Below the pieces are notes generated by a model, which saw only the letters and a list, made by a program, of their open reading frames with translations, was not told the origin of the DNA and made no database searches. Positions 4,007 to 36,114 of a stretch of 36,856 nt of DNA are shown in pieces; within the stretch, counting starts at the first letter, position 1; each line of letters opens with the position of its first letter. The stretch comes from Desulfobacteraceae bacterium (GTDB lineage: Bacteria; Desulfobacterota; DSM-4660; Desulfatiglandales; Desulfatiglandaceae), in the NCBI GenBank assembly GCA_030642205.1, contig DAOWOF010000003.1, forward strand, positions 1-36,856, read 5' to 3'. A program made the position numbers and the translations under genes.

Positions 4007-4190
4007 AGCGACCCTCCTTTAGAGTTTTTTTAGGTTATTTTTATTTTGATATAATTGTACGCATCTTTACGAGCAGTTTTCGTTTAGATTCTATTTAAGT
4101 GGCTTTTATGAATAAAATTTGAGTCAGATATAAAAAGATGGTCATTCGGAAATAAATAACAGGCAATATGGCAAGTACTGATAACATGTC

Positions 4191-15472: not shown

Positions 15473-15759
15473 AACTTTGCTTCCTCTATAATATGATTTA
15501 TAGCCCTTAAATTAGGTATCTGAGACCTTTTTGAAAACGCCCCATTTTGTCCAATTTCAGGCGCCAGTCTCAAGTGTTAAGATTATATTATATTCCTTTA
15601 TATTATTGCTTGGTGATAGTCCATATTTATTAGGGTTTTGTCAATAATAATATTTTAGTGAAAAAATGAAGTAACTGCTCATGATAATTAAATTTCTTTT
15701 AATTACGGAAGGTTATGGTCTTTACGAAAAGAGCAGCCTCTGACATTCACTAAACCTTC

Positions 15760-16814: not shown

Positions 16815-16992
16815 TAGTGTCTGAAGGGAAACTATAATTTTTTCGAAGTCTGCACTTATCTGTCAAGGACAAAGACAAAAATTTTAACCGCAGGAATACA
16901 TTTAGGTATTTTGAGGGTTGAAATTTTTATCTGACGCATAGACTGGATAGATAAATGCAGAGTTCGAAAAGACAGTTTTCATTCGGGCACTA
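16815..16992. mobile_element. MITE-like palindromic element, copy A (~178 bp)
   Basis: Left end TAGTGTCTGAAGGGAAACTATAATTTTTTCGAAGTCTGCACTTATCTGTC; right end (reverse complement) TAGTGCCCGAATGAAAACTGTCTTTTCGAACTCTGCATTTATCTATCC; shared core TTTTAACCGCAGGAATACATTTAGGTATTTTGAGGGTTGAAATTT. Confidence 0.75.
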
Positions 16993-24974: not shown

Positions 24975-25034
24975 TTTTGCAAAATCTTGCCCGTGCTATC
25001 AATCGTTTGATAATAGTAATCGGTGTTGGCTATG

Positions 25035-25211
25035 TAGTGCCCGAACAAAAACCAGGATTTTTTCAAGATCAAGGAATGCAAAAATTTTAACCGCAGGAAT
25101 ACATTAAGTATTTTAAGGACTAAAATTTGAGACTGGCGCATAAATTGAGAAAATTAGGAGTTGTCCTGCAATAAGTTGGACAATTTCTTAGCAATTTTCG
25201 TTCAGGCTCTA
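25035..25211. mobile_element. MITE-like palindromic element, copy B (~177 bp)
   Basis: Left TAGTGCCCGAACAAAAA; right (reverse complement) TAGAGCCTGAACGAAAATT; core AAAATTTTAACCGCAGGAATACATTAAGTATTTTAAGGACTAAAATTTGAG. Confidence 0.75.
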
Positions 25212-25279
25212 TGTATTTATTATAAGCTTTTGGGATTATTTTTTAGTATTTGATAGCTAAAAGGAAAAGCAAGAAAGAT

Positions 25280-26820: not shown

Positions 26821-26836
26821 TTTTATTTTCCATAAA

Positions 26837-26981
26837 TAGTGTCTGAATAAAGACTGCTAATTCTTTCAATTTCTGTGCCAGTCTCAAATCTTAATCCTCA
26901 AAATACTTAATGTATTCCTGCGACTAGAATTTTTGCCTTCCTTGATACTGGAAAAATTTTCTGATTTTAGTTTGGATGCTA
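26837..26981. mobile_element. MITE-like palindromic element, copy C (~145 bp, internally shortened, core in opposite orientation)
   Basis: Left TAGTGTCTGAATAAAGACT; right (reverse complement) TAGCATCCAAACTAAAATCAG; core (reverse complement) CGCAGGAATACATTAAGTATTTTGAGGATTAAGATTTGAGACTGGCAC. Confidence 0.7.
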
Positions 26982-27096
26982 AATAGTTATTGAGTATACA
27001 ATCTATTAAAATAGTAGTAATCTACTATTCATGCCTATCAAAAGCAAGACTTATTGAACAAAACAAAGGAGAGATTTAAGCGGGAAAATTAAATCC

Positions 27097-29139: not shown

Positions 29140-29702
29140 ACTTTTTTCCTCATTTTTTTGTAGATATTTATTTTTGTATCTCCATATATCCTTATGTCAG
29201 ACATCTCTAAATCGCCATAGAAGGAAGATAAAACCTCATGTTTAGAAGATTCTGCAATAACTTTCGCATTAGCAGAAAGGATTTTTCCTTCAGAGAGCTG
29301 TTCTAATAAAGATGGTAAATAATCCTTTCTATAGGGAGGATCAATAAAAACCAAATAAAAAGTTTTATATTTGAATAAATGATTTTGTAATAGGCCTTTT
29401 TTTAGATCTCTTCGTAAAATTTGGCCTATATCTACATAACCACATTGAACAAGATTTTTTTTTATAAGGTTTATTGCCTTTTGAGAATTATCAATAAACA
29501 GGGCATTCTTCGCGTTACGACTTAAGGCCTCAAGGCCTAAACTGCCAATGCCGGCAAAGAGATCCAGAACTTTCATGTTGCTCAAATCATGACCTATGAT
29601 ATTAAAGATAGCCTCTCTGACACGATCTGATGTCGGCCGGGTATTCAACCCCTTGGGAGGGAATAAATTTCTGCCACTTATATGTCCGCCTGTAATCCTC
29701 AT
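29136..29702 (-). CDS. rsmD: 16S rRNA (guanine966-N2)-methyltransferase; start likely at the internal MRITGG rather than the ORF-track ATG at 29735
   Basis: MRITGGHISGRNLFPPKGLNTRPTSDRVREAIFNII, LDLFAGIGSLGLEALSR, FIDPPY; 4-bp overlap with coaD. Confidence 0.93.
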   Translation of the reverse strand: MRITGGHISGRNLFPPKGLNTRPTSDRVREAIFNIIGHDLSNMKVLDLFAGIGSLGLEALSRNAKNALFIDNSQKAINLIKKNLVQCGYVDIGQILRRDLKKGLLQNHLFKYKTFYLVFIDPPYRKDYLPSLLEQLSEGKILSANAKVIAESSKHEVLSSFYGDLEMSDIRIYGDTKINIYKKMRKKV

Positions 29703-29740
29703 TAAATATAGTGTAAAATTTGAGCCTGACAACAAAATTG

Positions 29741-29870
29741 GTCAGATAAGCACAGACCTCGAAAGAAGATGTTTTGTAATGGTTTCAATGTATTTGTGGT
29801 ATCTTGGGGATTCAAATTTGGGCCTGATACATAAATAGTGCCTGAACAAAGACTATCTTTTCGAAGTCTG
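29741..29870. repeat. Degenerate/rearranged copy of the MITE-like element
   Basis: CAGATAAGCACAGACCTCGAAA (inverted TCGAAGTCTGCRCTTATCTG), degenerate core TATTTGTGGTATCTTGGGGATTCAAATTTG, then TAGTGCCTGAACAAAGACTATCTTTTCGAAGTCTG from 29836. Confidence 0.55.
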
Positions 29871-33417: not shown

Positions 33418-33574
33418 TCGTGCCCGAACGAAAACTGTTTTTTCGAAGTCTGCGCTTATCTTGTCAATCTCTGCATCAGATAAGAATTTTAATCCTCAAA
33501 ATACCCAATCTATTTCTGCGGTTAAAATTTTGATCTGTCCTTGACAAAAAATCCTGGTTTTCTTTCAAACACTA
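33418..33574. mobile_element. MITE-like palindromic element, copy D (~157 bp), between dxr and rseP
   Basis: Left TCGTGCCCGAACGAAAACTGTTTTTTCGAAGTCTGCGCTTATCTTGTC; right (reverse complement) TAGTGTTTGAAAGAAAACCAG; core (reverse complement) AAAATTTTAACCGCAGAAATAGATTGGGTATTTTGAGGATTAAAATTCT. Confidence 0.75.
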
Positions 33575-36001: not shown

Positions 36002-36020
36002 TCAAATTTTAAGGATAGTA

Positions 36021-36067
36021 TTTTTTTAACCGCATTACATTGAGTGTTTTGAGAATTCAAATTTGAA
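36021..36067. repeat. Isolated core of the MITE-like family, copy E (no recognisable TIRs)
   Basis: TTTTTTTAACCGCATTACATTGAGTGTTTTGAGAATTCAAATTTGAA resembles the copy B core. Confidence 0.5.
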
Positions 36068-36114
36068 CAAAACGTAACAATTGTAAAAATTCACCGATCG
36101 TGAATCGAGACTAT

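Follow-up and report, generated by a model that had tools for sequence, protein, structure and literature searches.

The intergenic repeats of the DNA analysed here (a stretch of 36,856 nucleotides from a Desulfobacteraceae bacterium, hereafter the window) are probably members, with T1 ends, of a single Desulfobacterota-wide lineage of non-autonomous elements, in which the tips have been exchanged repeatedly and a hairpin core has been retained. One such core is found within at least six types of 12-base tips, most of them with a target duplication length of their own, and the lineage therefore appears to have changed the transposase that it exploits several times. The sharing of one core by at least six terminal types across the phylum was not visible to the preliminary description, which was made from the sequence of the window.

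Copies of the element in the window and in the phylum

The window contains four copies and several fragments, as follows (TD, target duplication).

4073-4097, plus strand: possible remnant of a T1 right tip, GCAGTTTTCGTTTAGATTC followed by TATTTA, from sequence only
15522-15580, minus strand: fragment with a T2 tip (GAGACCTTT..) and part of the core
16817-16990, plus strand: copy A, T1 tips; core on the plus strand, covariance-model match at 16857-16946; flanks TAGTTA/TATAGA, a decayed TD
25031-25036, no strand: left TD of copy B, TATGTA
25037-25209, plus strand: copy B, T1 tips; core at 25063-25148 on the plus strand; an additional small hairpin within the right arm
25210-25215, no strand: right TD of copy B, TATGTA
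26833-26838, no strand: left TD of copy C, TAAATA
26839-26979, minus strand: copy C, T1 tips; core at 26866-26951 on the minus strand; 141 bp, the standard length
26980-26985, no strand: right TD of copy C, TAAATA
29645-29741, plus strand: weak decayed core (covariance model, E 0.014)
29836-29870, minus strand: solitary T1 arm, 88.6% to the consensus
33420-33572, minus strand: copy D, T1 tips; core at 33464-33550 on the minus strand; flanks TAAGTC/TAAGAA, a decayed TD
36003-36084, plus strand: decayed core (covariance model, E 6e-7)

All four copies named in the preliminary description (16815-16992, 25035-25211, 26837-26981 and 33418-33574) are present, with borders corrected to lie inside the terminal TA; the element proper runs G..C. 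Inverted matches among them extend over 77-105 nt at 77-86% in a repeat search; with a covariance model built on the core, the four cores are recovered in the window at E values of 3e-21 to 1e-17. No transposase is encoded within any copy, as had been said. The degenerate pieces fared unevenly. The one proposed at 36021-36067 lies within a decayed core, and 29741-29870 resolves into the weak core and the T1 tip. The fragment at 15560-15580 was confirmed, although its end (GAGACCTTTTTGAAAACGCCCC) is of type T2, a second end type beside the T1 copies; at 4070-4140 there is a T1-like right tip only, and no match to the covariance model. An extra inverted segment (TTCGAAGTCTGCGCTTATCT / AGATAAGCGCAGACTTCGAA) lies between tips and core in T1 copies of this genome, including 16817-16990, and lengthens them to about 174-180 bp.

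The core recurs in its own genome (a 2.34-Mb assembly in 294 contigs, 80% complete) far above chance (a failure to do so was named in the preliminary description as a refutation): BLAST with the 178-bp copy gives 44 matches, and the covariance model of the core gives 82. In a sample of 396 Desulfobacterota genomes the core of about 86 bp was matched in 53, a few of them by marginal short matches, representing about twenty families; first-look candidates numbered as many as 340 in a single genome. Similarity among relatives is confined mainly to these central 86 bp or so. Among the matches listed from public genomes, every named one is desulfobacterial, deltaproteobacterial or a loosely labelled proteobacterial metagenome assembly; searches of phages and plasmids gave no match to the core. 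One genome (G178, L357 and L358) has a diverged core with 148 model matches and arms resembling GGCGAGGCCCCGAGAGGGGGC, which differ from all six tip types.

Terminal types, target duplications and the common core

The terminal types and their duplications are given below; expected counts were obtained from shuffled flanks.

T1: tip GTGYCYGAACGAAAAC; exact 6-bp duplication in 15 of 26 copies, 3.7 expected
T2: tip GAGACCTTTGMAAAA; exact 5-bp duplication in 48 of 70 copies, 0.9 expected
T3: tip GTGTCCATCCRKAAATG; exact 6-bp duplication in 21 of 44 copies, 1.1 expected
T4: tip GAGGCTGTCCGAGAATG; CTAG-like flanks, about 4 bp, in seven copies only
T5: tip GAGSCAGTTTCAAAA; exact 4-bp duplication in 9 of 13 copies, 0.8 expected
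T6: tip GGGTGTCTTGAAAAATTAG; 4-bp TNNA duplications in five copies, by visual reading; from a different family of Desulfobacterota

Single copies hint at further tip types. Elements are about 142-178 bp long, the standard being about 142 bp, and have matched tips at both ends. Insertion is seen directly in type T2: in genome G441 a T2 copy has ATCTT on each side, and in G423 the same flanks (about 900 bp each, 93% identical) meet at a single ATCTT (adjacent at 61801/61802 by BLAST coordinates); G155 likewise lacks the element. The orthologous empty site, which the preliminary description had proposed to look for, was thus found for a sister type of the window copies, and it shows insertion of the 5-bp type. 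By every MITE feature tested (short length, inverted tips, target duplication, lack of a transposase gene and, for T1 and T3, tips in common with an autonomous element) the repeats are MITEs; the 6-bp duplications, the empty site of the sister type, the intergenic dispersal and the lack of coding bear out the earlier reading on this point. REP elements are hairpins of 20-40 nt that make no target duplication. Assignment of the repeats to REP/RAYT elements does not fit their length of about 142 bp and duplications of 4-6 bp.

Types differ at their ends and agree in their centre. In comparisons between types and genomes, identity over the outer 12 bp is 46%, against 91% within a type and 25% when shuffled; for the core it is 84% between types and 86% within them, and the T1-T5 consensus cores agree with one another at 92-98%. 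The distance from tip to core is usually 28 bp on the left and 27-28 bp on the right in all types. An inner arm AAAATGTTCAATTTTGT is common to T2 and T5, and another, AATGAGATA.., to T3 and T4, so that the difference lies mainly in the outermost 12-13 bp. Wherever both ends could be typed they are of one type (160 of 160 copies, none mixed). Even one genome can hold the same core within differing terminal repeats: among 245 copies in 88 genome labels, two or more types occur in 16 labels, an approximate count because JAFDFH and G016, with four types each, may be one organism and other labels could coincide too. In G037, types with different duplication lengths coexist and their cores are up to 97.7% identical. 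The tips of different types retain a G.G.C...AAA pattern, and they may be diverged relatives of one another, not foreign replacements, because their identity of 46% exceeds the shuffled value. Some T2 elements lack the core (L291, L292 and L304), one of them being just 49 bp, almost two tips back to back. Longer T2 copies in G016 and G037 (L285-L304) carry GC-rich hairpin inserts of 30-60 bp inside the core, at about four fixed points shared by several different inserts.

The core is a conserved imperfect hairpin. In 59 diverse cores 92% of cells are standard pairs, compared with at most 49% when the pairing is slid; two-sided changes are seen in 19 of 28 pairs (9.3 in shuffles), and covariation scores 0.235, compared with 0.132 (sd 0.006) for shuffled and at most 0.091 for slid versions, all from copies that share ancestry and are not independent. 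For a T2 sequence of 142 nt the folding energy is -65.8 kcal/mol (z -11.8). The core strand gives a more stable RNA fold than its complement in 212 of 224 copies, and G-U outnumber A-C mismatches by 482 to 113 (161 to 113 when two fixed G-U columns are left out); the strand counts share the same non-independence. Of 131 copies, 6 lie inside an open frame. Between tandem genes, 50 copies are in the sense orientation and 27 against it, and the downstream gene is co-directional in 79 cases and not in 46. These observations fit an effect at the RNA level. The strand asymmetry could also stem from a shared founder, and two-sided changes can come from correction of quasi-palindromes in DNA; perfect palindromic patches are found in L006 and L190. 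The sole Rfam 15 match above the gathering score in the window is a tRNA, and none falls on the repeats. A tandem GA/GA mismatch is kept in most cores (A1 columns 26-27 and 77-78); such mismatches are stable in both RNA and DNA.

Partner transposases

A search of the relatives with PF01609 recovered a 1698-bp insertion sequence (L218/L226), which ends in T3 tips (GTGTCCATCCAGAAATG..) and lies between duplicated copies of TAATTA. The protein that it encodes has 468 aa and reaches 449.6 bits with the NCBIfam ISNCY transposase model NF033593, whose cut-off is 325 bits. L227, L228 and L246 are further T3-tipped ISNCY elements with 6-bp duplications. A full-length insertion sequence with the tips of the window copies, which the preliminary description had proposed to seek, also exists: L236 is 1931 bp long, T1-tipped, flanked by TACTTA/TAATTA, and encodes a protein scoring 508 bits with the same model. 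The core is absent from all seven ISNCY elements examined, and the genome of the window, as assembled (80% complete, 294 contigs), has no match to an ISNCY transposase. T1 and T3 are thus predicted to be mobilised in trans by an ISNCY-family transposase; the insertion sequences that match their tips probably belong to the ISDol1 subgroup. The ISNCY proteins also match the IS5 model.

The right tip of T2 is letter for letter the published tip of the IS5-family element ISNme1, GAGACCTTTGCAAAA (PMC4596501, Table 2), and because of this identity we infer that T2 uses an IS5-type transposase. Searches of the draft genomes by tip pattern, PF01609 and NF033578 found no autonomous element for T2, T4, T5 or T6. 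In public contigs, pairs of tips separated by 0.3-2.9 kb were considered as possible insertion sequences and rejected: the pairs examined enclose ordinary host genes, and are therefore neighbouring MITEs. Genome G011 has at least 89 matches to DDE_Tnp_1 transposases, mostly of one repeated family.

Explanations for the variable tips and comparison with known systems

The ends of the window copies read TA..TA, from which the preliminary description had suggested mobilisation by an IS630/Tc1-type transposase with a TA duplication. The exact 6-bp duplications (TATGTA and TAAATA in the window, and those of 15 of 26 T1 copies in the family) place the terminal TA within a TANNTA duplication, and the tip-matched insertion sequences code for ISNCY transposases; on both counts the suggestion is refuted, and we give it next to no credence. 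A small independent element that entered several unrelated MITEs on separate occasions and became their core would account for the presence of the core within several tip types, and other small hairpins do enter the core. Separate insertions would not be expected to yield the constant distance of 27-28 bp from tip to core, on which ground we reject this very improbable scenario, nor the common inner arms, and no duplication was noticed flanking the core. The earlier choice between a mobile element and a regulatory RNA turns out to be drawn too sharply, since mobility goes together here with a core that forms a covarying, strand-asymmetric hairpin. Still, it is rather unlikely that the core works for the host as a structured RNA or regulatory hairpin that transposition has spread and selection on transcripts maintains. 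The covariation, the stability of one strand, the excess of G-U over A-C and the sense and downstream biases would all suit such a function; yet the copies are not independent, some of those in the window are decayed, Rfam has no match, and the orientation bias may merely reflect which insertions were tolerated.

The strongest rival is ordinary diversification, in which the tips of an ancient MITE drifted gradually along with related IS5 and ISNCY transposases, with no exchange and no function of the core; we regard it as possible, if doubtful. It draws on the homology of ISNCY and IS5 transposases, on the 46% identity and common G.G.C...AAA pattern of the tips, and on the short inner arms common to different types. 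Against drift, the tips are discrete, with matching ends in all 160 doubly typed copies; conservation is much higher in the core than in the tips, whereas an ordinary MITE shows the opposite; and the types with unlike duplication lengths in G037 can have nearly the same cores. We therefore prefer the exchange of tips around a retained core. A transposase acting in trans would recognise the outer tips and insert the element, duplicating the target bases on either side; in the case of T1 and T3 it would be an ISNCY-family DDE transposase that makes 6-bp TANNTA duplications. Repeated swapping of the outer tips of about 12 bp, at both ends, would have allowed passage from one transposase to another. 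In a near-palindrome, one altered tip might be copied onto the opposite arm by intra-strand template switching, and such copying through the hairpin would explain why the ends always match. The core may persist because the element benefits from its structure or sequence, or because it is tolerated in transcripts. The fullest version of this account, a parasite of transposases that outlives each enzyme by one-step tip copying and switching of families, with its core under selection throughout the phylum, is offered only tentatively.

MITEs are expected to retain the tips of the parent transposon and to lose everything else. In the elements described here, the tips are variable and the centre is conserved, which is the opposite. 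If tips were indeed exchanged, a non-autonomous element could survive the loss of its transposase, and this would help to account for the persistence of MITEs in lineages that have no autonomous partner. With hundreds of copies, spread over many genomes and six tip types, the question is open to testing by phylogeny and by assay, and the covarying core offers a specific candidate for a structured RNA or DNA that MITEs carry. We found no earlier description, in the open-access literature to which our search was confined, of these sequences or of MITEs with exchanged ends; what seems to be new is a MITE lineage with a conserved centre whose recognised tips vary in type and in duplication length.

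A conserved centre with differing ends that recruit different enzymes is known from the CORE-SINEs of animals, which are eukaryotic retrotransposons with no relationship to the elements here and serve as an analogy only. Correia and ERIC elements resemble the present ones as long imperfect hairpins and are read into transcripts; their hosts differ from those here and, to our knowledge, each has a single terminal type. Closer at hand are the ISNCY insertion sequences, which share the T1 and T3 tips and the 6-bp TANNTA duplications but lack the core, so that the MITE is not their simple internal deletion. Geobacter is a genus in or near Desulfobacterota. Its species G. uraniireducens has an intergenic MITE, Chunjie, of 178-235 bp with 38 full and 57 partial copies, likened to ours by description; the part of the source consulted, which also states that Correia transcripts are cut by RNase III, reports no exchange of tips (PMC10969869, citing Chen 2008 for Chunjie). 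The bcr1 repeats of Bacillus cereus are high-copy repeats with features of mobile elements; unlike the elements here, they are associated with a TTTAT motif, may use a site-specific mechanism and belong to one host group (PMC6542083). In Neisseria, ISNme1 with its ATR (IS5) resembles our elements in that its tip equals one end of T2, and for BrickBuilt of Porphyromonas gingivalis, non-autonomous and with stem-loops, the use of several transposases has been speculated, as its duplications differ (PMC4596501). No core common to tip types is reported in that work, whereas in the present lineage several tip types, each with its own duplication length, are found around one core throughout a phylum.
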